DNA of 64,000 bases, taken from contig CM069870.1 of the NCBI GenBank assembly GCA_036172665.1, positions 60,698,212 to 60,762,211 on the forward strand, read 5' to 3'. This document shows positions 1,184 to 58,073 of the stretch, one piece after another; within the stretch, counting starts at the first letter, position 1; each line of letters opens with the position of its first letter. Below the pieces are notes generated by a model. That model was not told the DNA's origin. It saw only the letters and a list, made by a program, of their open reading frames with translations, and did not search any database. The position numbers and the translations under genes were made by a program. Source of the DNA: Prosopocoilus inquinatus. Taxonomy: Eukaryota > Arthropoda > Insecta > Coleoptera > Lucanidae.

Positions 1184-1612
1184 TTACGGCTCGGGTTAAG
1201 AGATGGCGCCACAAGTGCTTGTAAATTCTCTCGCTGTAACTTTTTACGTACAAAATTTTTGAATAGATAAACCAGCGACATCATACGATCGCTTTTTGAC
1301 GATTTGCAACAAAATTTTATAAAATCGTTGTTTATTCGAAGTTCTTTTCAGGACATTGTTTTTCAACAAGCTCAGATCAGTTGTTTTGGAATCTCTTCCT
1401 AGCAAATTACGAATTTACGACTCGGGTTAAGAGATGACGCTGCAAGCGTAAATTCATACGCTGTAACTTTTTAAGTACAAAATTTTTATTTTTTCAAAGT
1501 TCTTTCCAGCTCATTGTTTTTGAACAAGCTCAGATCAGTTGTTTCGGAATCTCTTCCTAGCAAATTACGAATTTACGACTCGGGTCAATAGATGGCGCTA
1601 CATGCGTCGTTC
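1184..1612 (+). repeat. Three-unit tandem repeat
   Basis: Three units begin at about 1184, 1416 and 1574 with 'ttacgactcgggttaagaga' or a close variant, followed by 'tggcgc', 'cgctgtaactttttaagtac', 'aagttcttt', 'gaacaagctcagatcagttg' and 'gaatctcttcctagcaaatt'. Start-to-start spacing is about 232 then 158 bp. The excess in unit 1 is a roughly 74-bp insertion at 1260-1333. The third unit is cut short after its 'tggcgc' box. Confidence 0.75.
1260..1333 (-). repeat. Hammerhead-repeat fragment inserted in tandem unit
   Basis: This stretch is missing from the sister unit at 1416-1573, so it is an insertion. Its first half is the reverse complement of the segment around the unit start in the 312-bp ribozyme repeat ('agcgatcgtaagatgtcgct' type). 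Its second half, 'gatttgcaacaaaatttta', matches in plus orientation the part of that repeat just 3' of its ribozyme. The junction therefore joins two parts of the repeat in opposite directions, as the block at 18341 also does at its left edge. Confidence 0.6.
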
Positions 1613-7175: not shown

Positions 7176-10075
7176 TAGGGATGCATGCAACGCTTCGATA
7201 CTTTTATAAGTATCGATATTTTTTGGGTATCGAATGGCATGGGAACATCAATACTGTCGTTTAGATATTTTTAAAGTACCGATACTGTCATTTGGGAATC
7301 GAAAAGTATCACAATCGCCAAATTAATGACAACAGCTCAAACCTACTATAAAAAATAATAATCTCGTCTTCCTCGCTTCAATTACTCAACTTGTTACGGT
7401 TTGAAAAACCGCTTTCAAAAGTCATCCTGTATATTTAAAGTTTTAAATCGCATAAAGAAAGAAGAAAACGAACAAAGTTATCGTGTGAACGACGAGTGGC
7501 GTAGTTTCTCGCTTGCTTCTTTTTATTTATTCTCATTTTCATCGCAGGATGATCGTATTGTTAAAACATAAAATGGCGTCCCACGCCTCGATCTAATTTT
7601 GTGGTGCAGGTCGCAGACTGTTTTTTGTGCACCTCAAAACGCTCCGACAATAAATCCGTATAAGTCCGTAGCTACATTTCACCATATTTCGTGGGAATTA
7701 AATCGAATGTTTATTCTAACCGTCGACATTGATCGTAAAACTCTGCGACGCACAGTGGGACATTAGGAGATAAATCGTGCCAAAAGTACTTTTCATCAAT
7801 TGTAAAATTTGTTAACATAACATTTGTAAGTACAAAGTTTTTTTAATCTCAAGCTTCATGACGAAGCTATAAATCTATAGCGAAACGTTGAGTGTGTTCC
7901 CTTCATTTTTCTGTCCGGTTTGAGATTAATAAAAACTTTGTGCTTACAATTTTCACCGGACAAGAACAAACTTCAATAACATTTGTAGTCGCATACTTAA
8001 TATTCCAATTTATTTAAAAAAATATAATTTAAGTCAATACGAAATTGTTTTCTATGATTTTTAGCTCTTTAAAAAGATGTAATATGCCAAGGTATTAAAT
8101 GACATTTTTTAACCTGTTTTTGTTACCTTTGAAATATCATCTGCGTGAGTAACTTTGACAAATTTAATAGTTCTTTTTAAAAATACTTTACTTATAGTAG
8201 ATTATAGGAATGGTAAGTCGAAATTTATTTCATTCTTTTTTTAAGTACGAGCCTTTACATTGAGGGTTCTTTTTTGCATGCAGATCAATAAATATGTAGA
8301 CTTTTGATTATTATCGGCATTTGCCGGCACCTTAAATTTTATGTTTACATAAGGAATAAATGTCTAAGAACTGTTTCTCTTAAAAGCTAGTTGCATCTTC
8401 TTGCACCTTTTCTTATTATCATGTATTTAAGTTGCTCAAATTTAGGAAATTTTAATTACACTTCAAATTGTGATGGCCTGGCCATGTTGTACAAACATTT
8501 TTGGCAAATATCAAAAACAGTTTTGCAGTTTGTTTAGTTCTTGTGAACTATCATTTCATTGAGAAAGTTGTTAAATTAATAACTATTATTCTCAAAATAC
8601 ATGAACTAAAAATTAAAAATGGTTGTTAATCTACTGTATTTGCTGAAAGTTGAGAAACAAACTTCCCAGTTGCAAAAATATGTTGTTGAAAACTTTTCAC
8701 TTTGCTGATTTAATCATTTTCAAATTTTCCAAATTTGTCTTTTCAGTTAAAACTTATTTAAATAAGTTTTACTAACGTTCTCTTTACCAACGCGCGTAAT
8801 GATACCAGCATCCTTTTTATTGATGTTTTAGTTTCCATTTTTAATAAATTCGCAAACAAATAAATTATAGAGGTAATAAATTTATGATTTAATTCATCCT
8901 CACATTATATTTCTTAAATCGAATGGCGTATTTTGTAATTTATTTTGTTTTTTTTTTTATGAACGTTTTGAACGATACCTCAAACTTCAATAAATTAAAG
9001 GAAGGAAAAAAGAAAAAAGCAAAAATGTTTTTAGAATGTCATATATACAGGGTGTTGGAAAAGAGGCAAATAGTGACGTACCCTACTTCCCCCCATATAA
9101 AGCAAAAGTTCGGATTAAAATTCCCTTATCCCTATTGTTTTATTCTAAAAGTAAAATCAATTTTTATGTATAAAATTGCCAATCTATGAAATAATAATTC
9201 GTATTCAATTAATAGAATCTTTTATTGATGATTTATGAATGATAACGATATTTCTCCAAAATAAAACTATGATACAGGTAAAAAATTATTTCAGAGGAAG
9301 AGAATCTGATTTATTTTAAAATTAATTAGTATCGGTTTTCCTTGATCATTATAATTGAAATTATCCGAATTATATTTCTTTGCTCCTTTTTTGTTTAAAT
9401 TTTTATTTCAATTACGTAAAAGTGATATCTAAGAACTTTTATACTTGATCTAATCAAATCTAATGAAACGAATGCAAAATGATATTTTCAACGACCTGTA
9501 CATCAACTTTACAGTATGTTTGCTCCTTAATTCTGTTTTTCGTGCATCTCTTGTCATTTGTGCCAAATTTCAATTTCATGACGCAATTTTTTTTGAAGTT
9601 ATAGATTTTTGGCACGAAAAAGTGCGTTTTGCTCCACTGTGCGACGCCTTAGAGTTTCGTGTCATCTGGTCTCTGCGATTTATTATTTCGACGGAAACAT
9701 AAATTACTTTCACAATTAATATCTGACGTCATCGGTTATTGCTGATATCATCTTATATACGGTTGGCTTTTGTTTGGTTCATGTTGGATTTGATTCGACC
9801 TAGTCCTTCGCTTCGTAGTTATGGGCGTAGCCAACTTTGGCTTTATTAATTTGTGAGGTGCCTGTAGCAATCAATCGTCATTGAGATATAATATTTTTTT
9901 TTCTATTTTTCCTTCTTAAATTAATAATGTGTGTAATTTAATTGATACTGTTACAGCGCAACGACGCGATATTTCAAAATATCGATACTTTTCTGCCAAG
10001 TATCGTATGGTATGATACTATTAAAAAAAACATCATTCAATACAAAGTATCGATACTTTGTTTAAAATATGCATC
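7176..10075. mobile_element. Possible long hAT-like element, degenerate
   Basis: The left edge begins 'TAGGGATGCATGC' and is followed by inverted 'AAGTATCGATA' motifs. The right part (9972-10075) carries several 'AAAGTATCGATACTTT' palindromes and stops at 'atatgcatc'. The element at 48364-49838 has the same 'TAGGGATG' start and CGAT-rich subterminal region, which supports one family. No transposase frame survives and no target duplication is convincing. The right-end motif is repeated at 14160-14215 together with downstream sequence, so the true right border is uncertain. Confidence 0.35.
7826..7947 (+). repeat. Hairpin repeat with hammerhead-like core
   Basis: Arms 'GTAAGTACAAAGTTTTTTTA...CTCAA' and their near-perfect inverse enclose a short hairpin, 'gcTATAaatcTATAgc', followed by 'GAAACGTTGAG' and a 'gtccgg' box. 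The order 'TGACGA', hairpin, 'GAAAC' matches the core order of a hammerhead ribozyme, but the essential first C of CUGANGA is an A here. Related, more decayed hairpins with the same 'gaaacgttgagtg' and 'gtccggtt' boxes are at 52118-52252 and 58434-58509. Confidence 0.55.
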
Positions 10076-10536
10076 ATTCTTATTGACGCAGGAGTTTACT
10101 AGGTAACATGCGAGAGGCAACAAAATTTTCAAATCGGTTAAATTTCAAATAGATTACAAGTTAGAGGTTGCATATAAACACCCTGCATGACAGTTAATAC
10201 ATGGCTATTCAATGTTCATATTACCTGTAGGAGAATTATCCACAGTTCTGGAAAACACAAAAACAAAAACAAAAAAGTCCCACTAGAATCTTAAAAACAA
10301 GGTAACAAAGTGCAAACTTTCAGGCTTAAGAGAAAACTAACATGAGCGTTTCGTTTACTGTTTTTTGTATTTGGGTTTGAAAGTCCCGCTCTAAAGTTAC
10401 TTAAATAACTACAAATTTTATGATGTCGTCTTAGTAACTACCAAAGTATGTAACATAAAAAAAACATCAAATTTTTTAAATCGGTACTGCTTACTTTTAT
10501 ATTTTTGCACAGCGATTAAGCATTTCGACCACTGTG
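10030..10536 (+). repeat. Foldback-family arm, left of long-repeat copy A
   Basis: Sequence up to 'tttcgaccactgtg' (ending 10536) matches the right arm of the foldback element at 15918-17367: 'gtttactgttttttgtattt', 'agttacttaaataactacaa', then the terminal 'CCACTGTG'. Part of it (10030-10200) is repeated at 14162-14330, including the 'caaagtatcgatactttg' palindrome and 'gaggttgcatataaacaccc'. The host repeat continues at once after 10536 with 'cgtcggcccaattt', so this is probably another insertion of that foldback family. Confidence 0.6.
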
Positions 10537-11040
10537 CGTCGGCCCAATTTCCCGTCGCATGTTATTGCTTTATTTAGCTTAATGAAACTTTAAAACTCTT
10601 TCTGATTATTTTATATATTCAAGTTTTACTACGAGACAAATGAAAATAAATCTAATTTAAGTACGTCTCAAGTAATTAAAATAGACGCTCTCGTCTCAAG
10701 AAACTCCCGAAATTGAAATTAAAATTTTGACTTGTACTATCAACTTTTGGACTAATATAAGTGAGTTTAGCTAAATTGCAATATTTTCTGTGTTCCATTA
10801 CTTTTAGACTATCCTGGATGTTTTTTTACTGTGTGCAGATAAAAAAAACCTCAGTATAAGGACACGAAATATTATTTAGTATAGTATTTTTTGGTGGTTA
10901 TCATAGCCAAAAAAATTCGGAAGGACCACTTGTTTAGAACTGCTGAAATGTGCGAGAAAGATAGGAAGGTAAACTTCGCCTTACTATCGGTATGAACACG
11001 CCCACCGATACCGCACTGGATGTTCTCTTTGCATGTGCCG
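10537..11040 (+). repeat. Long repeat family, copy A (partial)
   Basis: Near-identical in order and sequence to 12150-12655: 'cggcccaatt', 'gcatgttattgctttattta', 'aagtacgtctcaagtaatta', 'gacgctctcgtctcaag', 'ctaaattgcaatattttctg', 'ttactgtgtgcagataaaaa' and 'cgaacacgcccaccgatacc'-like words. It ends near 11040, where similarity to copy B stops. No protein is encoded. Confidence 0.8.
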
Positions 11041-11956
11041 AGTACATCTTTATACTCTTGTTTCTTTACGTATCCCCATAAATTAAGAATAGTACAAGTG
11101 AAAATGGTTTAGTATTAACTTTTTGAAATTTATTTCATACTAATATTAGATTATATCTTTTTATGCGTATTTCAACAGGTACGCTGCCATTTTCAATCAT
11201 CCACACACGCATACCCTTTGGTTGATACGAGCCAGAGGATATTCTCATTGAATCTCCGATAGAAAGGAAGACAGTGGTGTGGCTGTCGAAATACGTATCT
11301 ACAATTATAAACAAATTGTGGTAAGAGAGTATTTTTTTCATTTGTTTACTCATATCCATAAAAGTAGTCGAGAGACAAATCTGGTAACTATGAAGACCAC
11401 TTCAAAGCTTTACAACGTTCTAACCAGCAATTATCCAACCGATTCGTAATGTGTTCTTACATAACCCGAATAAACGGAAAAAAATCGTTCAATTCCTGAA
11501 TTTATATATTTATTTTTATTTAAATCACTAAAAGTGCTATAAATTGTATGGGTAAATATATTAAATTATTCTGAGAGGAATGAAAATATTTTACAGCACG
11601 TTCCTTAAATTAATTATACAGAAGTGATAATAACTCAACTTAGAACTTAACTTACACGGCACATTTTTTGCATAAAATTAAAAATAACTCGGTAAATACT
11701 AAAAATAAGGAAGCACATCATTTTTATCGTCTGTTCAAGTGCTAACCGAAACTACAATAAAATATATAGTGTTCCTTTTAAAAAATAATAAGTTAGGTTT
11801 AGAGTAGAACTTATTAAATGAACAACCTGTATATTTGAAAATAATTTTAAATTATGCGGAATGAAAATCTTCACAACTTTTGCTAAGACTTTTTCTTGAT
11901 AAAATATATTTAAAGGGACATTTTTGGACTTTTTCAGAGGTTTGGAACACCCTGTA
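11041..11956. other. No gene seen
   Basis: AT-rich. The 74-residue minus frame at 11135-11359 has no recognisable domain. A lone 'gaacaccctgtata' end motif lies at about 11946-11959, of the kind found at the ends of several elements in this window. Confidence 0.4.
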
Positions 11957-12422
11957 TAATCAATTATTTCTATTCGTATGTTATCAATTTATTTCTCTTT
12001 TGCCTTGTCTGCAAATATTCTACTATTACCAACCTTAACGGAAGTTAATTTCTCTGCAGCGAGCGCCGATTTGCCATTACATACTGGCCACCGCCGGTTC
12101 GCCTTCGCCAATTCGCAGTAGAACCAATTCGCCGTCGACCCAATTCTCCGTCGGCCCAATTCCCCGCCGCATGTGATTGCTTTATTTAGCTTGATGAACT
12201 TTAAAACTCTTTTTAATTATTTTAGATATTCAAGTTTTACTAGCAGTTAAATGAAAATAAATCTAATTTAAGTACGTTTCAAGTAATTAAAACGGACGCT
12301 CTCGTCTCAAGAAATTCCCAAAATTGAAATTAAAATGTTGACTTGTATTATCAACTTTTGAACTAACATAGGTGACTTTAGCTAAATTGCAATATTTTCT
12401 GTGTTCCATTACTTTTAGACTA

Positions 12423-13228
12423 TCCTGTACAGGGTGGTCTTTTACTGTGTGCAAATAAAAAAACCTCAGTATAAGTACACGAAATATTATTTAGTATAGT
12501 ATTTTTTGGTGGCTACCGTATCATAGCCAAAAAATTTCGGATGGATCACTTGTTTGGAACCGCCGAAATGTGCGAGAAAGATAGGAAGGTCAACTTCGCC
12601 TTACTCTCGGTACGAACACGCCCACCGATACCGCACTCGATGTTCATCGCAGATTCTCGTAGTAATAATCACTGATATCGTTTATTAATTATTTTATTAA
12701 AATTTTAAATCACTAAGGCCCGGTTTTTTCATCTATGAGTAACTTTAACCGTTGATTAATTCCTATAGAAACAATTGTTTCCATAATGGTAACTATGGGA
12801 ATAAATCAACGATTAAAGTTACTCCGAGTTGAAAAGACTGGGCCTAAGCGTAGTAATATTACTAATAATTTAAATATTATTATTTGTTTTACGATATCAA
12901 CTATGGATGAAATACGTATGCACCAATTAGGTAAGCGCGTTAAATATGGTCTTCCTTCACCCTTTTATGTAAATAAGCTTTTGCTGTAATCTCGCTGCTA
13001 GCTATGGAAGTATTACTACTTACGGTCCTTGGAAAAAAAATAAATGTAAAATTTTTATAAGTCTATTAAAAATAATATGGAATGAGAAATTACAATTTGT
13101 TTGTAACTCGCTTTTAATTTGTTCGGCAATTACAAACCGCAGCTTCTTGAATTGCACTAGATTTCAATTTAAAAATACTGAATCTTGTAATTACTTGCAG
13201 TGAAGTTAATTTAAATTCGTAAAAATTA
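12423..13228 (+). mobile_element. TACAGGGTG-ended element inside copy B
   Basis: It starts 'TACAGGGTGGTCTTTTACTG' and matches, inverted, most of the better-preserved element at 45814-46740: 'acctcagtataagtac', 'ttttacgatatcaacta', 'atctcgctgctagctatg' and 'aaccgcagcttcttgaattg'. Copy C of the host repeat passes straight from 'ctatcctgta' to 'tatcgttttaa', so this 0.8-kb piece is an insertion. The right TIR seen at 45814 is missing here. It contains the MITE at 12717-12844. Confidence 0.7.
12717..12844. mobile_element. PIF/Harbinger-like MITE, 128 bp
   Basis: A near-complete palindrome with ends 'GGCCCGGTTTTTTCATCTAT' and inverted 'GGCCCAGTCTTTTCAACTCG', continuing through 'AGTAACTTTAA(C/T)CGTTGATT'. 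It is flanked by TAA on both sides (12714-12716 and 12845-12847), the three-base TWA target of PIF/Harbinger elements. It has no coding capacity. It sits inside the TACAGGGTG-ended element and is absent from that element's copy at 45814-46740, so it inserted later. Confidence 0.88.
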
Positions 13229-13640
13229 AATTAATCGTTTTAAAATGGAACCCCCATTTTTTTATAATTTTAAATTCTGCTGAAAATTTTACATATCTTC
13301 ATATAAGTTACCGCACGTTAAAAGTGAGATTTTGACAATTGAATATTAACGCTTGTAAGTCAGATATTACGTTTTTAATTTGATATTTAAATTTTATTTT
13401 TATATCAGTACAGTGATAATTATTAATCCAATAGAAAAGTAAGATTAAAAAGCAGAGTTAGTTGTACTTCAAAATTTAATGACTTCTTTGCATTGCTTTT
13501 GCATAATCAGTTTCAAAGTTTGGTCGAGTTGGGCGGACTTCTTGATCGTAGTTGGGCCCTCTTTCAACAATTTTAAACTTACGGTTTGTCTAATTTTGAA
13601 AATGATCAACCTGTGGTGACTTTAATTTACATGAAAATTA

Positions 13641-14034
13641 GTATAACAAAGTATAACAAAATCGGGCGTTGTTAAAATTATTGAGTTTATCTGTTACTTT
13701 ATCAGAACATTGTGCCAATGTATCACATTGAATTAATGACAGTTATTTATTTATTTATTTTTTCATTAAATATGTTAGCTTTTTATTTTAAATACGTTTA
13801 ATTATCGTATAATATTATTTGAATATGTACTGCAACCTGCATTTAAAACATTAAAAATATTCTCACGGGGAATTTACCATCGGCGAGTTTGCCGACGGCG
13901 ATTTGTAACTACGGCGAATTGGCGACTGTAAATCGGCGGTCGTAGTTTTTGATGGGCCTACTTGATCTACATTCATACTTCTGCACCTTTAAACCGTGTT
14001 TTTTTTATTAAAGACATTTCGCTTAAATAATCAC
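13641..14034 (+). repeat. Stretch with inverted 'cggcgaatt' module
   Basis: Mostly AT-rich, but 13865-13950 is a GC-rich cluster of 'cggcgaatt', 'cggcgatttg' and 'cggcgagttt' words. These are the inverse of the 'aattcgccgtcg' module at 12085-12172. The two modules may be the inverted ends of the long repeat family, with copy B then spanning about 12060-13950. That reading is inference. Confidence 0.4.
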
Positions 14035-14400
14035 TAAAATGTTTATAATTTACTACTTACTTACTGACAGTGAAGTTAATTTAAATTGTAAACGTTTTGA
14101 CTGACCAGCTGATCAGAGCGGCTGATTTACGTCGTTCGTGCTCAAGATCAAGTGCAGTACTGACCCATCATTCAATACAAAGTATCGATACTTTGTTTAA
14201 AATATGCATTATTCTAATTGATAAAGGAGTTTACTAGATAACATGCGAGACGCAACAAAATTTTCAAATCGGTTAAATTTCACAGAAGTTACAAATTAGA
14301 GGTTGCATATAAACACCCTGCATGACAGTTAATACAGGGTGCCTACAAACTAAAACCCTGCACGGAAGTTGATACAGGTGCTTATAAACACTCTGTATGA
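14035..14400 (+). repeat. Repeat mosaic
   Basis: 14050-14160 continues the TACAGGGTG-element interior: 'agtgaagttaatttaaat', then 'accagctgatcagagcggct' and 'ctcaagatcaagt', matching 46037-46110 inverted. 14162-14335 matches 10030-10200 in direct order, including the TATCGATA palindrome and 'cataaacaccctgcatgaca'. The junction at about 14161 therefore joins two different repeat families. Two short 'tacaggtgc(c/t)tataaac' phrases follow. Confidence 0.6.
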
Positions 14401-15463
14401 AAGTTTTGCTATTCGCAGTTTTTCTTCTGTTATGTTGCTGTTAAACTCATGCATGATTCGCTCACCAATAACTTACGCTTCATCGATAAGATAACAGTAA
14501 GTTTTCACGTTCTTCCTAACAATTTTTCGTATCGCAGCAAATGATTAATGAATTTCATTCTGGGAAGCTGTCTCTAGTTTGTAATTACTTTCCTAATAGA
14601 ATCTGAGTCATTAACGGTGCCGGTGCAGAGTCAATTCATCGGATTTTTTTCCTCGTCGGCGATACCTAAAAACCGCCCGTTAACAACGGGAGATAAGACC
14701 TTCCTTCTCCTTCGTACAAAAATATTTTGATTTGAAATTACTCGCGCTCGCGATTTTTTTTTTCCACCCACCGCCTGGCATTGTTTAATGTTTACGAGAA
14801 GCCGGCTGTTTTCCTCTCCGCCAAGATACCGGCAATCTTGTTTTCGAAATTCTCTCGAATTTATTTTGTAAACGTTGCTAAATCGAGAGCAGTTTTTTTT
14901 TTTTCTTTTTTAATTTATCGGGGAAGTGTGTTCAATTATGAAGAGGCCGAACCACCGAGGGACTATCGAATACGGTCAAGTTTGTAAAACTTGGATGAAT
15001 TAAAATACCGGCTGCCAACAGCTGACGTTTAAATGCGTACATGTATGCTGCAGGTGCTGGTTTATTCAATGTTGGAGCCCGCAATTTTTGTCGTTAGAAA
15101 ATTATTTATCAGCCGTTGCTTGTAAATTGGTCATTTTCATAAGTGTTAGGTAAAATGTTCCTTGTCGCTGAAGGATGATAACCACGGTACTTTAAACTTC
15201 ATAAATTTTCATTCACCGCTGCTTAAATAAAATATTTACAGAATAAAATACGACGACTTCCACAGAGATAGTACATACAATAATGCAGTGTCTGTTACAT
15301 AATTTTAATAAATTTAATAATAAATATGCTTAAACTGGGCTACATAAAAGAGAGAACAAAACTGTGCTACTGTTATTGGGTTCATAAAGCAATGGCATAC
15401 TTAATTTAATTTAGTTTTTTAAATTAGAACCATCCCTGGTTCTAATTAAAAAACAAACACATA
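14401..15463. other. Non-repetitive stretch, no gene seen
   Basis: Unlike its neighbours this stretch matches nothing else in the window, and 14480-14990 is less AT-biased. It contains GATA-like ('cgataagataac'), homeodomain-like ('taatta') and short palindromic words but no convincing frame; the 68-residue frame at 14781-14987 has no domain. It could be single-copy DNA with regulatory content, which only cross-species comparison would show. Confidence 0.35.
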
Positions 15464-15604
15464 CCCTGGTTTTCTTCCACGTTCGTTAGTCGCCAGCAAC
15501 CTCTATCAGTATAAAAATTTTTATTGGTGAGGAGTGTCGTTTAATTGATTGTTGATACTCGGTTGCAGTCATTGACGACCAACAAACGTGGAGGAAAACA
15601 AGGG
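15464..15604. mobile_element. Hairpin MITE, 141 bp
   Basis: The ends 'CCCTGGTTTTCTTCCACGTT' and inverted 'CCCTTGTTTTCCTCCACGTT' extend on through 'TTGGTCG' with few mismatches. There is no coding capacity. No certain target duplication is seen, so the superfamily is unassigned. Confidence 0.75.
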
Positions 15605-15774
15605 ATTTATTTCCTCCTTGAAGCTTGTTCCATAAACCACTACTTGTCATCTTCAGTATAATGTAGACGTATTTTCCAGGTTAGTGGAAATTATCTAAAG
15701 TCTGTCCAGTTTTGAAAACAGATGATGCTGTACTTGTGTCTAATTCAGTACCTGAGCTTTGCTAAAATTTTTGA

Positions 15775-15917
15775 AATTATCCAATTATTCCTATTCGTAT
15801 GTTAGCAATTTATTTCTCTTTTGCCTTGTCTGCAAATGTACTATTATTACCAATCTTAAGGGAAGTTAATATTTCTGCAGCGAGTGTCGATTTGCCATTA
15901 CCTACTGGCCACCGCCG
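15775..15917 (+). repeat. Long repeat family, copy C, left part
   Basis: Matches 11957-12100 with few changes ('ttcctattcgtatgttagca', 'tctcttttgccttgtctgca', 'ttgccattacctactggcca') and ends at 'ccaccgccg', where the foldback element starts. Copy C continues after the insertion at 17368. Confidence 0.85.
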
Positions 15918-17367
15918 CACAGTGGGCGAAATTTATAATCTAGCTGTGCAAAAGTAAAAAAAGTAAGCAGTACCAATTTAGAAAAAAACAATGTTTTTTT
16001 TTGTGTAATACACTTCGGTAGTTACTAAGACGTCATCATCATGTGTTTTTCAAAACTATGGATAATTCTCCTACAGGTAATATGTACAGTGAATAGGCAC
16101 CATTTTAAATTTGATTGATTCTTTTATGTCAACTGACACGCTGTTGAAATTTATGATGTAGTAATCACTCATATCCACTGATTTTCGAGTTGAAATGTCT
16201 TTGTGTACAACCACAAAGAATGTTTGTATTTAATTAATAAAAAAATATGTGCAAGAAATTGCAAACAAAGAGTGAATAAAAAGTAAGGAAGATTGATGCG
16301 ATGATAGCGCCGTTATTATAGGTTTTACAAAAAAATGTTTCAAATAAAAGTTAAATTACTATTTATTTGCCACAAACTGGCGTTTTCCATTTTTCCTTGT
16401 GACGCCATAATCTGAAACTGTGACGTCATAATCTGGGACGGTGACGTCATAATCTGGAACGGTGACGTCATAATCTGGGACGGTGACGTCGTAATCTGGG
16501 ACGGTGATGTCATAATCTGCGACTGAGACGTCATCGGTGATTTTTTTAAATTTCAATTTATTTGTTTATCCAGATTGATAATATATTTTTTCTCTCTTTA
16601 TGGCCAAATAGAATCATAGAATTTTATAAGAAAAATTTTGAAAAGTCTACAGACTCGCAAAATAGAGTTCAGTTACCCGAAATATTTCTTACCTCTATAA
16701 TATTTCATAAAAGCGTGAAGAGAAAAAAATGAAAAAAATATAGATTTTAAAGAAAATTATTGATGACGTCACAGTCAATTATGACGCCATACGTCACAAG
16801 GAAAAAATTAGAAACTCCAGTTCGTGGCAAATAATTAGCCATTTAATTATTAATTCAAATGTTTTCTTGGACAACCTGTAATACCGACGACCTACTCCTT
16901 TTTTTATTCACACTGTATATTTATTTCCAATTTCTTATATACATTAATTAAATAGTAATTTAAACAAACATATCTGAACTCGAAAATCAACGGATATGAG
17001 TGGTTACTATGCAATAGACTTCAACAGCGTGCGAGTTGATTTAAAAGAAGAATTCAATTACCTGTGGAGGAAAGTTTTGGAAAACCGAAATTGAAACAAA
17101 ATCTTTAAAATAACACATTTTTAGACTTAAGAGGAATATGAGAATTTCGTTTATTACTTTTTATATCTGCATTTAAAAGCCCTATCCTTAGTTACTCAAA
17201 TAACTACAATTTTTTTCTTCGAGTCCATCTGGAATTAGGAAACCCGAAGAATCTGAGAATGAAAATGGATAAATTTTATTTAAAAAACTACTTTTCAAAT
17301 CGTTAAAATCAATAAACTTTTTTTCTTTGAATTTTGCGCAGCTAGATTAGGCGTTTCGACCACTGTG
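15918..17367. mobile_element. Foldback-type element, 1450 bp, 5-bp duplication
   Basis: The ends are CACAGTGG-CGAAA on the left and its inverse on the right, followed by 'TAATCTAGCTG(T/C)GCAAAA'. Long, gapped inverted arms continue inward: 'actcatatcc(a/g)ttgattttcg', 'gacacgctgttga', and 'tttgccac(a/g)aactgg(c/a)gttt' at 16366-16405 against 16791-16831. CGCCG is duplicated at 15913-15917 and 17368-17372, and copy B of the host repeat shows the empty site 'accgccggttcg' near 12090. There is no transposase. The loop holds a minisatellite. Arm sequence also occurs at 10200-10536. Confidence 0.85.
16399..16536. repeat. 21-bp minisatellite of TGACGTCA sites
   Basis: Six consecutive 21-bp units of the form 'GTGACGTCATAATCTGGGAC(G)' plus a partial seventh. 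Most contain TGACGTCA, the palindromic CRE/ATF-CREB binding site. Because 21 is a multiple of three, the minus strand stays open in two frames (16340-16534 and 16359-16556) and gives heptapeptide-like repeats. I treat these as by-products of the repeat, not genes. Further 'gatgacgtcac' and 'acgtcac' sites occur at 16763-16798 in the opposite arm region. Confidence 0.9.
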
Positions 17368-17519
17368 CGCCGGTTCGCCTTCGCAATTCGCAGTAGAACC
17401 AATTCGCCGTCGACCCAATTCTCCGTCGGCCCAATTCTCCGCCGCATGTTATTGCTTTATTTAGCTCGATGAACTTTAAAACTCTTTCTGATTATTTTAG
17501 ATATTCAAGTTTTACTAAG
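17368..17519 (+). repeat. Long repeat family, copy C, middle part
   Basis: Resumes with 'cgccggttcgcct', runs through the 'aattcgccgtcgacccaatt' module and 'gcatgttattgctttattta', and matches 12090-12240 until it is broken by the hAT element at 17528. Confidence 0.85.
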
Positions 17520-17527
17520 AATTAGAT

Positions 17528-17766
17528 CATAGATTCTCAAGTGGGCGCTGAAGCGTTCTAGGGGGGCGGTAGCGAGTTCACGGGAAATTGGGTGGCGAAG
17601 TTAATAATAATTTTGAAATCAGAAAATCATTGAAAAGATAAGTTCTGCATTATTGATAATCGATCTCGCGCAGCAGACGATACATCCGGTTTGGCTGTGC
17701 AGGAATTTTTTTTTTGCAGCAATTTTTGGCTTGCAGCGGCGACCGCAAAAAGTTTGGGAACCTATG
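17528..17766. mobile_element. Short hAT-like MITE, 239 bp
   Basis: Ends 'CATAGATTCTCAAGTGGGCG' and inverted 'CATAGGTTCCCAAACTTTTT' resemble the hAT ends at 4844-6003. The 8-bp flanks 17520-17527 (AATTAGAT) and 17767-17774 (AGTTAGAT) differ by one base. Copy B of the host repeat (about 12238-12250, 'actagcagttaaatgaaaat') shows the uninterrupted site. Internal 'ggggggcggtagcg' and 'gcagcggcgaccg' are typical GC-rich subterminal words. Non-coding. Confidence 0.85.
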
Positions 17767-18340
17767 AGTTAGATGAAAATAAATCTAATTTAAGTACGTT
17801 TCAAGTAATTAAAATGGACGCTCTCGTCTCAAGGAATTGAAAATAAAATTTAGTTTTGTATTATAAACTTTTGGACTAACATAAGTGAGTTTAGCTAAAT
17901 TGCAATATTTTCTCGGTGTTCCATTACTTTTAGACTATCCTGTATATCGTTTTAAGATGAAATCCCCAATTTGTTTATAATTTTAAATTCTGCTGAAAAT
18001 TTTTCATAGTTTTATATAAGTTACCGTACCTTAAAAGTAAGATTTTGATAATTGTATATTAACGCTTGTAAGTCAGATATTACATTTTTAATTTGATATT
18101 TAAATTTTATTTTTATTTCAGTACAGTGATTATTAATCCATTAGAAAACTAAGATTAAAAAGCAGAGTTAGTTGTACTTAAAAATTTAATGGCTTCTTTA
18201 CATTGCTTTTGGAAAATCAGTTTCCAACTTTTTCCGGACTTCTTGATCGTAGTTGGGCCATCTTTCAACAATTTTAAATTTACAGTTTGGCAAATTTTGA
18301 AAATGATCAACTTGTAGTGATTGATTTATATGAAAATTTG
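17767..18340 (+). repeat. Long repeat family, copy C, right part
   Basis: Matches copy B first at 12244-12422 and then, without the TACAGGGTG insertion, at 13229-13640: 'tcgttttaagatg', 'acgcttgtaagtcagatatt', 'agcagagttagttgtactt', 'cttcttgatcgtagttgggc' and 'tttgaaaatgatcaac'. It stops at about 18340 where the hammerhead repeat block begins. The frame at 18198-18389 lies across this repeat and is not a gene. Confidence 0.8.
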
Positions 18341-18528
18341 TTGAACAGATAAAATAGCGACATCTTACGATCGCTTTTTGACCTGACATTGCAGTAGGAT
18401 AGACAAATTGAAGCGGGATTGTTAGGTCAAAAAGCGATAGTAAGATGTCGCTATTTTATATGTTCATCATTCTTACATCGCATTTGCGAATAAATTGGGC
18501 AAGTCGTTTTTGGTCTGCAGTGGGAATG

Positions 18529-18593
18529 TCGAGCTACGTTTCTGTTGAAGAAGCCCCAAGCAGGGCTGAAACAGCTGTCCAGAGGCTGCTCGA
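18529..18593 (+). ncRNA. Hammerhead ribozyme, copy 1 (C3 changed to U)
   Basis: The same fold as the copy at 18841. Stem I outer is TCGAGC paired with GCTCGA, the internal loop TACGTT faces GGCT, and stem I inner is TCTG with CAGA. The core strand reads TTGAAGA, so the first invariant C is T. Stem II is AGCCC with GGGCT, perfect here. The second core strand is GAA, stem III ACAG with CTGT without a loop, and the cleavage-site C is at 18579. The C3 change would be expected to stop or strongly reduce self-cleavage in this copy. Confidence 0.72.
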
Positions 18594-18840
18594 GGTTCTC
18601 ACTGCAATCAAAAACGATTTGCACAAAATTTTTCTAAAATCTTTCATTATGCTTTGACAGCAAGCATGGCCGCCTTGCATGGGGGACTCATTAGGAGCAT
18701 ATCCCGCTTCAATTTGTCTATCCTACTGCAATGTTAGGTCAAAAAGCGATAGTAAGATGTCGCTATTTTATATGTTCATCATTCTTACATCGCATTTGCG
18801 AATAAATTGGGCAAGTCGTTTTTGGTCTGCAGTGGGAATG

Positions 18841-18905
18841 TCGAGCTACGTTTCTGCTGAAGAAGTCCCAAGCAGGGCTGAAACAGCTGTCCAGAGGCTG
18901 CTCGA
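18841..18905 (+). ncRNA. Type I hammerhead ribozyme, intact core
   Basis: Every part of a hammerhead can be read. Stem I outer TCGAGC (18841-18846) pairs with GCTCGA (18900-18905). An internal loop of six against four bases follows, a common place for the loop-loop contact. Stem I inner TCTG (18853-18856) pairs with CAGA (18892-18895). Core CTGAAGA (18857-18863) fits CUGANGA. Stem II is 18864-18868 with 18875-18879, including one G-U pair. GAA is 18880-18882. Stem III ACAG/CTGT (18883-18890) is self-complementary and has no loop. Cleavage would follow C18891. Loopless stem III is known from Penelope-like and animal retrozyme hammerheads, which often act as dimers. Activity is inferred. Confidence 0.85.
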
Positions 18906-19059
18906 GGTTCTCACTGCAATCAAAAACGATTTGCACAAAAAAATGTTTATAATTTACTAAAAAATTTGCATACATAATCATTTCTCCGTAGTAAACGACA
19001 GGGAGACGAGGTTTTCTTAACTTACTATTATATATTATATTATATATTATATTACTATT

Positions 19060-24174: not shown

Positions 24175-25298
24175 AGGTCTAGAATTGATAGCGTTTATCA
24201 ACCGTCATATTTGAAAAATCTGACGTTTTTCGCCTATAATTCTATTGACAGTTCCTATCCAAGTGAACTAGTTTTGTTTGTACAGCATTTGAGAAAAAGT
24301 AATTTTGTGTAAACATGGAAATCTCGCGTGAAAATTTTCATGCCATGATTTTTTACGATTTCAAATGTGGTCTAACGCCGAAACAATGCCTCTATCGGCT
24401 TCATTTGGCTTTTGGAGATGAAGCACCATCAAAGAGCAGTGTTTATAATTGATTTGCCGAATTCCAGCGTGGACGTACCTCTCTCAGTGACGAATTTCGT
24501 GAAGGTCGTCCATCAACATCTATTGTTGCCACTAATGTATGTAGATGCTGTGCGTGAAATGCTTGAGCGAGATCGACATGTGACATACCGTGAGATTCAG
24601 GCATCCTTACGCGTTGACATGAAAGCGATACACCAGATTTTGCATGATCATTTGAACTTGAAGCTTTGCAGTTGCTGGATTCCACACAATTTAACAGAAG
24701 CGCAAAAGCAGGGTCGTGTCAAATGGTGCGAAGAAATGCTCAAGAAATTCAATGGAGGTCGTTCAAATTTAGTTTATAACATCGTTACTGGTGACGAAAC
24801 GTGGATCTATTCGTACGAGCCAGAAAGTAAACAATAATCTATGTTTGGGTATTTCAAAATAAACCGAAACCACCAAAAGTTGTCCGTTCACGCAGTGCTG
24901 CGAAGCAAATGATTGCTTGTTTCTTTGCTTCAACTGGACATGTAGCAACCGTGGCTTTAGAGGATCGAAAAACCGTGAATGCTGATTGATTGATAATTTG
25001 TTTGCCGGAAGTGATCGATCAAATAAGAAAAAACAATCGAAATCGACGAATTATTCTCCATCATGACAACGCCAGCTCTCACTCAGCCCGTCAAACAATT
25101 GATTTTTTGTCCAACAAAAATGTTGAATTGGTGAGCGATTTTCGTGATTTTCGGAAAACGTGCTTTAGAAATTGGTTCGAGCGTATGCAAAAGTGTATTG
25201 ACGTCAAAGGCGAATACTTCGAAAAACAATGATACCGTTTACCAAATTTCATATGCGTTTTTTCATACCTTTTCCAGAAACTTTTCCAGCAGCCCACA
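24175..25298 (+). mobile_element. Mariner element, decayed, 5' end lost
   Basis: Closely related to the mariners at 40235 and 56772. Homology starts at 'ggtctagaattgatagcgtt', inside the left untranslated region, so the left inverted repeat is gone. The right end 'ttttccagcagcccaca' and a following TA (25299-25300) remain. The total is about 1.1 kb against the family's 1.29-1.30 kb. Confidence 0.9.
24315..25232 (+). pseudogene. Mariner transposase pseudogene
   Basis: Begins ATGGAAATCTCGCGTGAAAA at 24315, like the intact copy. Lesions: the NWF tryptophan codon became TGA near 24451; a short insertion 'gtat' lies before 'gtagatgctgtg'; a TAA follows 'PESKQ' at about 24835; and 'TGATTGATAA' replaces the WYTT region near 24985. 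A deletion removes the segment from 'NVEL' to 'RGER', including the third catalytic Asp of SPDLSPNDF. A second deletion follows 'gcgattttcgt', and the frame closes at 'EYFEKQ'. GDETW and HHDNASSH are still readable. It cannot make an active enzyme. Confidence 0.92.
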
Positions 25299-38106: not shown

Positions 38107-38260
38107 TAAATAAATAACAAAATAAAATAAAAAAAATTAAAAATAAATAAATTGTAATATTGATGTATTCAGAAGCAAAATTTGCAATAAAAAAACAAAG
38201 AAAAATAAATAGTGTAATTAAAAAATATTTAAGTCAAAAAATAGACAAAATTTTGTTGAA

Positions 38261-38309
38261 ATGTCAGGTCAGAAAGCGATCGTAAGGGGTCGCTGTTTTA
38301 TCTGTTCAA
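38261..38309 (+). repeat. Hammerhead-repeat fragment, 49 bp
   Basis: 'atgtcaggtcagaaagcgat' followed by 'cgtaaggggtcgctgtttta' and 'tctgttcaa' matches the start of the 312-bp unit (18420-18470). It ends at the same 'tctgttca' word where the inverted pieces at 1260 and 18345 end, suggesting a preferred boundary. The ribozyme part is absent. Confidence 0.7.
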
Positions 38310-38727
38310 AAAATAGACGTTAAAAGGAAATTTATTGCAGGTCCGGTTAACATGTTTTTGAAGCGATTTTTTTGACGTATAATTTCTTAAAATCGGATAA
38401 AAAATAAGCAAGTTAGCATAGCATCAAAGGTTTTTCATATTCCACCCGGTTTGTGATTAGTAGTAATTTTTCGTAATACAATTTATCTTTCTGGAATGTT
38501 GAAATTGAAAATTCAAAAAGAAGGCAGCTTTACCTACACAGATTTAATAAAACATGAAATCTGAACTCAAAAATTTTTGGTCTATTATACGTATCGCCGA
38601 GTCAATCCGGGGACACACTGTGTAACTCCTTGTTACACGTACATAATTGTAGATAATTTCACTTTGTCATTTTTCTCTGTGTATTAAATGATGAGCCACA
38701 AAATTGTGATACGAAAAAGAATCGAAA

Positions 38728-40234: not shown

Positions 40235-41526
40235 CGTGGGCTGCTGGATAAGTTCTGGAAACGTTATGAAAAAACGCATATGAAATTTGGTAAACGGTAT
40301 CATTGTTTTTCGAAGTATTCGCCATTGACGTCAATACACTTTTGCATACGCTCGAACCAATTTCTAAAGCACGTTTTCCACTCTAAAGATGGTACCTCAG
40401 AAACCAATGTCCGGAATGTTTCAACCGCTGCTTCAGCAAACGAAAATCGCTCACCACGCATTTTATTTTTGATATTTGGGAACAAAAGGAAATCATTAGG
40501 TGATAAATCAGGTGAATATGTACAATGAGTCATTAATTCAACATTTTTGTTGGACAATAAATCAACTGTTTGACGGGCTGAGTGAGAGCTGGCGTTGTCA
40601 TGATGGAGAATAATTTGTCGATTTCGATTGTTTCTTCTTATTTGATCGATGACTTCCGGCAAACAAATTGTAGTATACCAATCAGCATTCACGGTTTTTC
40701 GATCCTCTAAAGCCACGGTTGCTACATGTCCAGTTAAACCAAAGAAACAAGCAATCATTTGCTTCGCAGCACTGCGTGAACGGACAACTTTTGTTGGTTT
40801 TGATTCATTTTGAAATATCCAAACGGTAGATTGTTGTTTACTTTCCGGCTCGTACAAATAGATCCACGTTTCGTCACCAGTAACGATGTTATAAACTAAC
40901 TTTGAACGACCTCCATTGAATTTCTTGAACATTTCCTCGCACCATTTGACACGACCTTGCTTTTCTGCTTCTGTTAAATTGTGTGGAATCCAACGACTGC
41001 AAAGCTTTCGTACGTTCAAATGATCATGCAAAATCTGATTTATTGCTTTCATGTCAATGCGTAAGGATGCTTGAATCTCACGGTATGCCACATGTCGATC
41101 TCGCTCAAGCATTTCACGCACAGCATCTACATTAGTGGCAACAACAGATGTTGATGGACGACCTTCACGAAATTCGTCACTGAGAGAGGTACGTCCACGC
41201 TGGAATTCGGCAAACCAATTATAAACACTGCTCTTTGATGGTGCTTCATCTCCAAAAGTCAAATGAAGCCAATCGAGGCATTGTGTCGGCGTTAGAGCAC
41301 ATTTGAAATCATAAAAAGTCATGGCACGAAAATTTTCACGCGAGATTTCCATGTTTAAACAAAATTACTTTTTCTCAAATGCTGTACAAACAAAACTTAT
41401 TCACTTGGATAGGAACTGTCAATAGAATTATAGGCGAAAAGCGTCAAATTTTTCAAATATGACAGTTGATAAACGCTAACAATTCTAGACCTACTAGATT
41501 CCAGGAAAATTTTCCAGCAGCCCGCA
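40235..41526 (-). mobile_element. Complete mariner element, 1292 bp
   Basis: TA flanks both ends (40233-40234, 41527-41528). The terminal inverted repeats are 'CGTGGGCTGCTGGATAAGTT' and, inverted, 'TGCGGGCTGCTGGAAAATTT'. Length and layout fit the mariner family (about 1.3 kb, single intronless gene). The gene reads on the minus strand. Both ends and the frame survive, so this could be a potentially mobile copy. Confidence 0.95.
40300..41352 (-). CDS. Mariner transposase, intact, 350 aa
   Basis: Cut-and-paste DDE transposase that binds the terminal repeats and inserts at TA. It is full length for mariner (about 345-350 residues). Residues 1-115 hold the two helix-turn-helix DNA-binding parts ('GRPSTSVV' near 65-71). 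The WVPHEL-type motif is WIPHNL at 121-126. The catalytic triad is D160 (in GDETW), D252 (in HHDNASSH) and D287 (in YSPDLSPNDF). Thirty-four residues separate the last two, the DD34D signature. It starts at ATG 41352, the start shared by related copies, and ends EYFEKQ. No stop or frameshift. The element would use host transcription; its promoter is not recognised. Three decayed relatives lie in the window. Subfamily not assigned. Confidence 0.96.
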   Translation of the reverse strand: MEISRENFRAMTFYDFKCALTPTQCLDWLHLTFGDEAPSKSSVYNWFAEFQRGRTSLSDEFREGRPSTSVVATNVDAVREMLERDRHVAYREIQASLRIDMKAINQILHDHLNVRKLCSRWIPHNLTEAEKQGRVKWCEEMFKKFNGGRSKLVYNIVTGDETWIYLYEPESKQQSTVWIFQNESKPTKVVRSRSAAKQMIACFFGLTGHVATVALEDRKTVNADWYTTICLPEVIDQIRRNNRNRQIILHHDNASSHSARQTVDLLSNKNVELMTHCTYSPDLSPNDFLLFPNIKNKMRGERFSFAEAAVETFRTLVSEVPSLEWKTCFRNWFERMQKCIDVNGEYFEKQ

Positions 41527-44424: not shown

Positions 44425-44675
44425 TGGACGTCCCTGCTGAAGAAGCCCCAAATAGAGCTGAAACAGCTGTACGGAAGCTGCTCGAGGTTTTCACTGCAAT
44501 CAAAAATGATTTGCAAAAAAATTTTTTAAAACTTTCATTATGCTTTGACAGCAAGCATGGCCGCCTTGCATGGGGTAGCTTATTAAGTAGCAAACCCGCT
44601 TCAATTTGTTATCCTACTGCAATGTCAGATCAAAAAGCGATCGTCGGATGTCGCTGTTTGATGTATAGATTTTTT
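44425..44675 (+). repeat. Hammerhead-repeat copy, decayed
   Basis: Matches the 312-bp unit from within the ribozyme through its end and into the next unit's start: 'gctgctcgaggttttcactg', 'aaaaatgatttgca', 'tgctttgacagcaagcatgg', 'ccgccttgcatgggg', 'gcttcaatttg', 'cctactgcaatgtcag', 'atcaaaaagcgatcgtcgga'. The joined end-to-start order shows it was copied from a tandem or circular form. The frame 44313-44720 merely reads through it. Confidence 0.8.
44431..44485 (+). ncRNA. Hammerhead ribozyme remnant
   Basis: Core CTGAAGA (44437-44443) and GAAAC (44460-44464) are intact, and stem III ACAG/CTGT is perfect with an A at the cleavage position (44471). Stem II keeps four of five pairs. Stem I has lost its outer TCGAGC half, and its inner part pairs weakly. 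Probably inactive. Confidence 0.55.
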
Positions 44676-45813: not shown

Positions 45814-46740
45814 ATACAGGATGTACTTTTACTGTGTGCAAATATTTAAACCTGTAATATATCACCATAAATGACAACGATTGAACTCATATGGTCTTAA
45901 CACAAATTTAATAGTTTTCGAGAAAAATGCAGTGGCAGATTTTTACTAATCCGTTTGAGAACTGCTGGCATAGCTAAAAGTGGAACGCGGCCGCCGCTTC
46001 AATTAAGACCCGCAGTCGAATTAGGCTAGGGTTAGTGCGTTACTTGATCTTGAGCACAAACGACGTAAATCAGCCGCTCCGATCAGCTGATCGGTCAAAA
46101 CGTTTAAAATTTAAATTAACTTCACTGCAAATAATTACAAGTTTAAGTATGTTTAAATTAAGATCTAGTGCAATTCAAGAAGCTGCGGTTCGTAATTGCC
46201 GAACAAATTAAAAGCGAGGTACAAACAAATTCTAATTTTTCATTCCATATTATTTTTAATAGACTTATAAAAAATTACTTTTTTTTCCATGGACCCTAAG
46301 TGCTAATACTTTCATAGCTAGCAGCGAGATTACAGTAAAAGTTTATTTACGTAAAATGGTGGAGGAAGAACATTTTTAACGCCCTTGCCTAATTGGTGCA
46401 TAAATTTTAAACTTATTCGTCGATAGTTGATATCGTAAAACGTATTACTTCGCTCAGTGAATTAAAATTTTAAATAAAATAATTGATAAACGATATCGGT
46501 GATTACTATTACGAAATGGGTTTGAATGCGGAACTCAGCGCGGTGTCGTTATGTAGGAAAGTGCTGCGACCTTACAAGTGTTTCTCTCTCGCACATATCA
46601 ACGGATCCAAACAAGTGGAACCTCCGAAATTTTTTTGGCTGTAGTACGGTAACCACCGGAAAATACTCATAGAAGGTGGCATTTCATGTACTTATACTGA
46701 GGTTTTTTTTAATTGCATACAGTAAAAGAACACCCTGTAT
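45814..46740 (-). mobile_element. ATACAGGRTGT-ended TIR element, 927 bp
   Basis: The left end 'ATACAGGATGTACTTTTACT' and inverted right end 'ATACAGGGTGTTCTTTTACT', both then GT(G/A)TGCAA, define the element. Most of it matches 12423-13228 (inverted), including 'ccagctgatcggagcggct'-like and 'atctcgctgctagctatg' words, so this is the better-preserved copy of that family and shows both ends. No transposase frame; the target duplication is unclear. Confidence 0.75.
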
Positions 46741-56771: not shown

Positions 56772-58073
56772 CGTGGGCTGCTGGAAAATTTTCTGGAATC
56801 TAGTAGGTCTAGAATTGTTAGCGTTTATCAACTGTCATATTTGAAAAATTTGACGTCTTTCACCTATAATTCTATTGACAGTACCTATCCAAGTGAACTA
56901 GTTTTGTTTGTACAGCATTTGAGAAAAAGTAATTTTGTGTAAACATGGAAATCTAGCGTGAAAATTTTCGTGTCATGATTTTTTACGATTTCAAATGTGG
57001 TCTAACGCCGAAACAATGCCTCGATTGGCTTCGTTTGGCTTTTGGAAATGAAGCACCATCAAAGAGCAGTGTTTATAATTGGTTTGCCGAATTCCAGCGT
57101 GGACGTACCTCTCTCAGTGACGAATTTCGTGAAGGTCGTCCATCAACATCTGTTGTTGCCACTAATGTAGATGCTGTGCGTGAAATGCTTGAGCGAGATC
57201 GACATGTGACATACCGTGAGATTCAAGCATCCTTATGCATTGACACGAAAGCAATACACCAGATTTTGCATGATCATTTGAACGTACGGAAGCTTTGCAG
57301 TCGTTGGATCCCGCATAATTTAACAGAAGCTCAAAAGCAGGGTCGTGTCAAATGGTGCTAAGAAATGCTCAAGAAATTCAATGGAGGTCGTACAAATTTA
57401 GTTTATAACATCGTTACTGGTGACGAAACGTGGATCTATTCGTACGAGCCAGAAAGTAAACAACAATCTGCCGTTTGGGTATTTCAAAATGAACCAAAAC
57501 CAACAAAAGTTGTCCGTTCACTCAGTGCTGCGAAGCAAATGATTGCTTGCTTCTTTGGTTTAACTGAACATGTAGCAACCGTGGCTTTAGAGGATCGAAA
57601 AACCGTGAATGCTGATTGGTATACTACAATTTGTTTGCCGGAAGTCATCGATCAAATAAGGAGAAACAATCGAAGTCGACGAATTATTCTCCATTATGAC
57701 AACGCCAGCTCTCACTCAGCTCGTCAAACAGTTGATTTTTTGTCCAACAAAAATGTTGAATTAATGACTCATTGTCCATATTCACCTGATTTATCACCTA
57801 ATGATTTCTTTTTGTTCCCAAATATCAAAAATAAAATTCGTGGTGAGCGATTTTCGTTTGATGAAGCAGTGGTTGAAACATACCGGACACTGGTTTCTGA
57901 GGTATCATCTTTAGAGTGGAAACGTGCTTTAGGAATTGGTTCGAGCGTATGCAAAAGTGTATTGACGTCATAGGCGAATACTTCGAAAAACAATGATACC
58001 GTTTACCAAATTTCATATGCATTTTTTCATACCATTTCCAGAAACTTTTTCATACCATTTCCAGCAGCCCACG
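56772..58073 (+). mobile_element. Near-complete mariner element, 1302 bp
   Basis: TA on both sides (56770-56771, 58074-58075). Ends 'CGTGGGCTGCTGGAAAATTT' and inverted 'CGTGGGCTGCTGGAAATGG'. The right end contains a small duplication, 'tttttcataccatttccag' twice within 58022-58064, which accounts for its extra length. Otherwise it aligns end to end with the intact element at 40235-41526. Confidence 0.95.
56945..57996 (+). pseudogene. Mariner transposase pseudogene, few lesions
   Basis: Same frame and start as the intact 350-residue gene. Lesions: codon 4 is TAG in place of Ser; KWCEE reads KWC-stop-E (TAA at 57359-57361); and one A is lost in 'gagtggaaacgtgc' near 57918, shifting the last 25 or so codons before EYFEKQ at 57994. 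A 'gtcatagg' change also sits in the tail. GDETW, DNASSH and YSPDLSPNDF are all intact. The first two lesions are single-base changes, so inactivation looks recent. Confidence 0.93.

Follow-up and report, generated by a model that had tools for sequence, protein, structure and literature searches.

A 312-nt hammerhead retrozyme of the beetle Prosopocoilus inquinatus inserted as two head-to-head arms with two fixed ends, a pattern shared with a Penelope-like element

Introduction

Animal retrozymes have been defined by Cervera and de la Pena (2020; PMC7229834), with insects among their carriers. According to excerpts of that article, metazoan non-LTR retrozymes are tandem repeats of non-coding units that measure about 170-400 nt and contain a type I hammerhead; their GC content is below 50%, their RNA is stable and self-paired, their target duplications exceed 4 bp, and Penelope-like elements coexist with them. 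LINEs and Penelope-like elements are named there as candidates for their mobilisation, the latter being called strong. The element described here shares all these features. It differs in being inserted as two head-to-head arms with two fixed ends (A and B below), a form not found in the excerpts of PMC7229834, and in the core of its monomer, which is predicted to be blocked whereas, according to that article, that of most animal circles is not.

Penelope-like elements are the second system of comparison. A typical animal Penelope carries an inverted pLTR, optionally a tail at one end and, where present, a target duplication of 8-10 bp, and the head-to-head form is the commonest of its inversions (PMC3846280, excerpts). 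One Penelope enzyme has been shown to cut and extend both target strands and to start inside the RNA (PMC11167929). Head-to-head arms, a tail at one end, AT-rich targets and target duplications, together with the extension of both strands from internal starts and the association with a hammerhead, are points in common with the insertions and the mechanism presented below (PMC3846280, excerpts; PMC11167929). On the other hand, our retrozyme unit has no reverse transcriptase or GIY-YIG domain, both of its arms are laps of one 312-nt unit, and within the unit its ends A and B are separated by about 140 or 172 nt, according to the way round, to be compared with a tail of 30-40 nt.

Three further systems are more distant. 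Satellite-type retrozymes of newts and axolotl share with our unit a weak helix III and a palindromic loop favouring dimers; they measure 330-350 nt, belong to vertebrates and were compared by description, not by sequence alignment (PMC7229834, excerpts). The pDo500 satellite of Dolichopoda cave crickets is likewise an insect hammerhead repeat for which a dimeric form is discussed, but in its dimer stem III lies within one strand, whereas it would form between copies in the dimer predicted here (PMC2837043, excerpts). Plant LTR retrozymes share a hammerhead-released circular RNA as presumed template, but have a type III hammerhead, LTR, PBS, PPT and 4-bp duplications (PMC4918200, excerpts); in our case the type I model fits best and the duplications are mostly longer.

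Results

The window, that is the whole stretch of 64,000 nt of P. inquinatus DNA analysed here, contains two 209-bp direct repeats (18420-18628 and 18732-18940), offset by 312 bp and 99% identical. Their two differences concern position C3 of the hammerhead core (C at 18857, T at 18545) and one base of stem II. A 312-bp unit is present 1.67 times across 18420-18940 and has a GC content of 42.9%; we number it from the first base past the predicted cut (u1 = 18580) to u312 = 18891. These results bear out a preliminary description of the locus as a tandem 312-bp repeat with a type I hammerhead and a sister copy in which C3 is changed to T. The same description treated the stretch from 18341 as a plain tandem repeat, which has to be corrected: 18339-18419 is the reverse complement of 18701-18781, so that the element consists of two head-to-head arms (Table 1). 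A microRNA-like hairpin, suggested for the same region by Rfam microRNA matches that all fell below cut-off, was rejected, the region being the inverted arm.

Table 1. Coordinates of the retrozyme, its parts and related features in the window
Feature	Positions	Strand	Remarks
Inverted arm	18339..18419	-	from u202, at site A (outer end), to u122; reverse-complementary to 18701-18781 at 95%; same layout in genome copies
Direct arm	18420..18940	+	1.67 laps, u153 to u49 (outer end, site B)
312-nt unit	18580..18891	+	u1-u312, from predicted cleavage site to predicted cleavage site
Hammerhead, intact core	18841..18905	+	type I; cleavage predicted after 18891; Rfam 22.5 bits and descriptor
Sister hammerhead	18529..18593	+	core C3 changed to T at 18545; putative cleavage position after 18579; Rfam 19.6 bits
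Stem III palindrome ACAGCTGT	18883..18890	+	predicted to pair over 8 bp with a second copy when the hammerhead is dimeric
Stem III palindrome, sister copy	18571..18578	+	predicted from cofold of two copies and pairing probability in the precursor
Site B region	18628..18650	+	u49-71; where one arm of genome insertions has its outer end
Site A region	18768..18788	+	u189-209; outer end of the opposite arm in genome insertions
Target repeat	17946..18347	+	copy of another repeat; sister 13234-13648 is 87.5% identical
Third copy	44428..44662	+	single arm, u269 to u192 (site A end), 87% identical, broken off within the hammerhead
Very short copy	38247..38305	+	site A end; other end ACAAAATTTT-like, too short for alignment; classed single-armed
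Very short two-arm copy	1260..1335	.	minus arm u199-159 and plus arm u35-71, i.e. A and B ends

The very short copy at 38247-38305 is bracketed by 13-bp target duplications, TCAAAAAATAGAC (38234-38246 and 38306-38318); a target duplication was also sought for the 1260-1335 copy and not found. At the main locus, the right flank of the insertion (18940-18959) equals 14036-14055. A clean empty site at 13.6-14.1 kb was considered and rejected: the flanks agree, but about 390 bp between them differ. The repeat family to which the target belongs is dispersed over 10031-18135 and 46029-46740, together with CCAATTCGCCGTCGAC arrays. As an insertion, the window locus is not representative, its upstream ribozyme having no C3 and its target duplication (6 bp) not being clear.

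No sign of protein coding was detected in the unit: the frame of the third copy has no homologue at E<=10 (9 candidates) and no Pfam match above cut-off. The possibility that the unit is the start of a coding Penelope pLTR was abandoned on the same ground, the lack of a homologue of this frame. Lacking a frame that encodes the reverse transcriptase and GIY-YIG domains, the unit is not a Penelope-like element in its own right. Because its length is 3 x 104 nt, one frame meets a single stop per lap and is open over 103 codons round a circle. Two exact-pattern scans of IMG/VR gave 0 matches. Other features of the window include a 21-bp satellite (16399-16534, 6.5 copies) with TGACGTCA, a CRE-like palindrome, in most units, three Mos1-like mariners (24175-25288; 40253-41512, with an open frame of 354 aa; 56785-58052) and another DDE-type element (54464-55526). 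Among the 120 relatives listed, of 572, for the mariner transposase of the window, the animals named are bee, ants and gall midges, and one entry is named as a bacterium; this would point, though weakly since mariners pass between species, to an insect host.

Each hammerhead comprises a CTGAAGA core (with T at C3 in the upstream copy), a stem II of 5 bp closed by a loop of 6 nt, GAA, the palindrome ACAGCTGT, site 17 occupied by C, and a stem I in two parts, and at 18841-18905 these elements are found where they had been placed beforehand (core positions C3 and site 17 follow hammerhead numbering). Rfam Hammerhead_1 aligns to 18851-18897 with 22.5 bits (E 0.0079 for 701 nt and all 4227 families) and is the best family for all three copies of the window (22.5, 19.6 and, at 44431-44476, 16.7 bits), all below its cut-off of 34. 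At gathering scores, Rfam release 15 finds nothing in the whole window. The covariance-model check proposed in the preliminary description gave a mixed answer: the score is below cut-off, yet for a 76-nt stretch Hammerhead_1 is the only one of 4227 families to match at E<=1. The Rfam consensus has the same loopless 4-bp stem III that had been pointed out in the window, and its loop II, CAAAUA, is identical in the third copy. We further used a strict descriptor made up of core, stem II, GAAA, stem III, H17 and a 4-bp stem I: it matches one place in the window, the downstream copy, and gave no match when both strands of 175 Mb of first-order random sequence were scanned.

Across the genome copies described below, 121 hammerheads were collected in 48 chains (counts that include a few duplicated loci). 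Full-length sequence is available for 117; in 95 of them the core, site 17 and the stems are all intact, and at least one intact hammerhead occurs in 42 of the 48 chains. The T at C3 was seen once in these 117 and is therefore private to the window locus within this sample. In 50 distinct sequences, differences per position amount to 0.89 in the core, 1.57 in the stems and 3.12 in the loops, the last value being inflated by one common polymorphism. Site 17 varies between C and A only, and the common polymorphism of stem II is C-G/U-G. Whether the stems mutate without compensation had been raised as a test of the ribozyme; 97.7% of stem cells are paired in the 50 distinct copies, but no clean two-sided compensation was seen among them. 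Diversity of the hammerhead (0.0435) equals that of the rest of the unit (0.0441) and hence gives no independent sign of selection on the hammerhead. We regard the hammerhead as probably a self-cutting RNA. Three divergent relatives score higher with Hammerhead_1: L051 (C4:54091586) 42.6 bits, L052 (C1:52807350) 40.1 bits and L053 (C7:10364934) 36.3 bits. The last has kept the two-arm A/B form but carries a G at site 17.

We searched the host genome (649.6 Mb, 173 contigs) with the 312-nt unit and obtained 123 matches from the best 40 of 432 candidates. The first analysis covered 18 of 30 loci (12 having been replaced by longer stretches), 20 regions and the third copy of the window; 3 of 8 places with other Hammerhead_1 matches and 20 of 30 places from a second query were added later. 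Since the genome searches score the best candidates (40 of 432, 30 of 30 and, for GIY-YIG below, 150 of 2232), all counts are those of samples. A typical copy consists of two tandem arms placed head to head, of at most about seven laps; of its outer ends, one lies at site A (u186-212) and one at site B (u45-75). After chain splitting and removal of short poor matches and three duplicated rows, the first sample comprises 55 pieces: 30 A/B, no A/A, 2 B/B, 14 single-armed (A or B) and 9 that are of other types or run off the locus. In A/B pieces the minus arm lies on the left and the plus arm on the right. Of the outer ends, 94 in all, A accounts for 39 and B for 46, which leaves 9 at other places. 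The 20 loci of the second sample gave 11 A/B, 0 A/A and 0 B/B, the remainder being single-armed or having an end unassigned or cut off. Overall, 41 of 43 two-ended insertions are A/B; with independent ends, the chance of at least 41 of 43 is 1e-10. Both B/B cases are doubtful, L033 being devoid of a target duplication and L047 having inverted flanks. L018 was rejected as an A/A case: it duplicates the L015 locus, since its left flank, reverse-complemented, matches the right flank of L015; moreover, its second end (u219) misses site A and is accompanied by no duplication. Arm length varies between tens of nt and 2268 nt, a maximum reached in a locus whose left edge is cut.

Of the 41 A/B insertions, 35 are flanked by exact target duplications of 10 bp or more, compared with 14 of 600 mismatched flank pairs. 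Their length is mostly 10-14 bp, about 12 bp; two of the 35 are overlong (17 and 25 bp), which may reflect repeats in the flanks. The window locus is among the six A/B insertions with a shorter duplication. A genome-wide search for tandem copies with target duplications had been suggested from the window alone. The duplications exist, but the copies are typically head-to-head arms, and the starting locus has 6 bp only. The 24 target duplications of the first sample are 88% AT (67% in the window). At the inner junctions, where the two arms meet, microhomology of at least 2 nt is found in 27 of 41 rows (two of which are duplicated loci), against 16% expected, and 8 rows carry extra bases. Inner junctions fall at many positions of the unit, and three of them, u127/u72, u30/u134 and u140/u223, recur across loci.

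In the predicted fold of a lone hammerhead (-24.1 kcal/mol), C3-U4-G5 pairs with stem III. The active monomer fold reaches -13.0 kcal/mol and would have a probability of 5e-9 under the energy model. By contrast, for two copies folded together the prediction is a hammerhead dimer in which stem III has 8 bp and the cores are open, at -52.1 kcal/mol versus 2 x -24.1. In a 521-nt precursor, the probability of stem III forming between copies is 0.36-0.42, and that of the blocking pairs about 0.57. The energy models leave out tertiary contacts. The circular monomer would be strongly structured, with a fold of -109.4 kcal/mol compared with -75.4 (sd 5.0) for shuffled sequences, 0 of 100 being as low, and 62% of its bases paired. 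This predicted circle has two unpaired runs longer than 7 nt, u48-69 (22 nt) and u186-210 (25 nt), which contain 42 of the 46 B ends and 39 of the 39 A ends, respectively. Equally unpaired ends are obtained in 5 of 312 rotations. Over the folds of 30 insertions both runs are unpaired to 0.82 and 0.83, compared with 0.37 overall. AT-rich stretches are both unpaired and easily primed, so that structure and composition are confounded at A and B, and composition by itself might account for the position of both the ends and the runs.

We compared the laps and arms of the insertions, leaving out arms shorter than 60 nt and two duplicated loci from the percentages. Mean difference is 1.76% between adjacent laps, 1.83% between opposite arms of the same insertion and 4.23% between different insertions. 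For 31 insertions, the mean distance to their own opposite arm is 0.026, compared with 0.047 between arms of different insertions, and none of 2000 permutations was as low. The own opposite arm is the nearest arm in just 11 of the 31, and for L041, L006, L036 (3056-3528) and L001 most other insertions are nearer than the own arm. At 13 shared polymorphic sites, an identical pair of laps across the arms was found in 24 of 30 insertions (best pair), compared with 72 of 1472 pairs between insertions; the window locus is the sole one of the 30 comparable insertions with arms that differ at two or more of these sites. These similarities are consistent with both arms being usually copied from a single RNA circle. 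However, the haplotype changes at two or more shared sites in 9 of 33 multi-lap arms, and the 13 shared sites account for 75 of 297 differences within arms and 86 of 429 between arms, where chance predicts 4%. The switches and the excess at shared sites imply that the template would not always be one monomeric circle, template jumps or a multimeric RNA being needed; pure copying of monomeric circles is weakened by the switches. One single arm of about 5.4 laps (L048:3154-4810, C7:22664553-22666209) shows successive laps that alternate between two haplotypes, as if copied from a dimeric circle or duplicated later as a 624-bp segment.

A search for GIY-YIG (PF01541) in the same genome found all 150 scored places (the best 150 of 2232 candidates) above cut-off, 130 with equal score, in open frames of up to 788 aa. 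A 1,251-base stretch upstream of a GIY-YIG in a 788-codon frame matches RVT_1 (E 7.6e-14) and the arm frame of L081 matches GIY-YIG (E 1.7e-7); the former was seen in L082, the latter in L081, and the two overlap in sequence. From these domains, we read this abundant young element as a Penelope-like element. Among the 37 rows listed for contig C2, there are 14 minus-then-plus pairs, one triple and 6 singles, with no plus-then-minus GIY-YIG pair within 10 kb. The eight close pairs examined (L074-L081) are inverted repeats, 98-100% identical. An AC-rich tail of about 37 bp is present on exactly one end in all eight, four times on the left and four times on the right, and their target duplications measure 9 (a T run, weak), 13, 11, 12, 14, 14, 13 and 14 bp. 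The eight copies were chosen by their close GIY-YIG pairs, so that their head-to-head form results from selection, while the tail rule does not. Sequence likeness between the ends of this element and sites A and B was not clearly significant: for the untailed end, 42 of 1000 shuffles were as good, at a place other than A, and for the tailed end 950 of 1000. Recognition in trans is therefore not explained by sequence. The Penelope-like element itself contains a hammerhead-like motif (L081:2140-2187, and likewise in L074-L080), with CTGAAGA, a hairpin, GAAA and the 8-nt palindrome ATACGTAT, its putative cut position lying 48 nt ahead of the untailed end. It was not retained as evidence, as Rfam does not find it and one extra base precedes stem II.

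Discussion

With a type I hammerhead, a non-coding unit within the range of 150-450 bp, target duplications longer than 4 bp, a GC content below 50% and a self-paired predicted RNA, the element falls into the class of animal retrozymes, as the preliminary description had supposed along with the absence of enzymes of its own; only the plain tandem form has to be given up. The reading that we consider likely is that this metazoan (non-LTR) retrozyme with a 312-nt unit is moved in trans by a Penelope-like enzyme, through a circle and priming at two sites. In this mechanism, arrays would be transcribed and neighbouring copies would pair via the palindromic stem III into a dimeric hammerhead that cuts, the core of a lone monomer being predicted to be blocked. 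The 312-nt monomer would then be closed to a circle. A Penelope-like enzyme, with its reverse transcriptase and GIY-YIG endonuclease, would make a staggered cut in AT-rich DNA, and the two target 3' ends would each prime on the RNA circle, single-stranded site A serving one of them and single-stranded site B its counterpart. Extension of each primer would cover anything from part of a lap to several laps, after which the cDNA ends would be joined to each other, as a rule by way of 2-4 nt of microhomology. The expected product has two head-to-head arms, one A and one B end, within a duplication of about 12 bp. The insertion rule common to the retrozyme and the Penelope-like element points to the enzyme that may move the retrozyme.

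It is rather unlikely that the same retrozyme is served instead by a LINE reverse transcriptase and endonuclease, the head-to-head form resulting from L1-type twin priming. Target duplications of 10-14 bp and twin-primed inversions are known from LINEs, which agrees with this explanation. Retrozyme duplications of 15 bp in Nematostella have been likened to those of LINEs (PMC4918200, excerpts). The window also holds a weak match to Exo_endo_phos_2, a LINE-type domain (19.9 bits, cut-off 27.4). Twin priming by L1, however, uses variable internal sites, whereas both ends of the retrozyme are fixed and nearly always one of each, as they are in the Penelope-like element, the sole element compared.

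A second question is whether the hammerhead is a relic that no longer cleaves, the element moving as an ordinary structured RNA. The score below the Rfam cut-off, the blocked core of the predicted monomer fold and a ribozyme diversity no lower than that of the rest of the unit would agree with a relic, and hammerhead mutants of Penelope still insert in vitro (PMC11167929). We nevertheless find this improbable in view of the large majority of intact copies (95 of 117), of a core that varies less than the loops even if the loop value is raised by one polymorphism among the 50 distinct sequences, and of the restricted changes at site 17 (C/A) and in stem II (C-G/U-G).

The palindromic form could also be inherited, from a transcript of a head-to-head copy serving as template, or arise by fold-back self-priming of one cDNA. 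Self-priming has been proposed for Penelope inversions (PMC3846280, excerpts) and three junctions do recur in more than one locus, but the remainder of the 41 junction rows occupy different positions of the unit, and fold-back predicts the same site at both ends where 41 of 43 insertions have A and B; this origin is thus very doubtful. Finally, although hammerhead tandem units of newts, cave crickets and schistosomes have been classed as satellites (in the excerpted literature), a satellite that carries the hammerhead as a passenger and owes its spread to unequal crossing-over deserves hardly any credence in the face of dispersed insertions on many contigs, target duplications, fixed ends and arms from tens of nt to 2268 nt.

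Returning to a Penelope-like enzyme acting on a retrozyme circle, the retrozyme family is new and its class ordinary; what stands out is the insertion rule shared with the Penelope-like element. We found no description of two-armed, two-ended retrozyme insertions in the excerpts of PMC7229834, PMC4918200, PMC7761336 and PMC11722881, which does not establish their absence from print. As the one-of-each rule is observed in the retrozyme and in the Penelope-like element alike, it would be a general insertion mechanism. The chances seem to us evenly balanced that a Penelope-like enzyme primes both target strands on one circle, once per fixed single-stranded site, with each cDNA running round it for up to several laps, and that inverted Penelope copies generally arise in this way, the retrozyme being the minimal substrate.

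The rule described here turns the question of which enzyme moves animal retrozymes, and of whether the circle is the template, into an in vitro test with a defined RNA, defined start sites and a defined enzyme. It also provides a genomic signature that may be looked for in any retrozyme-bearing genome.
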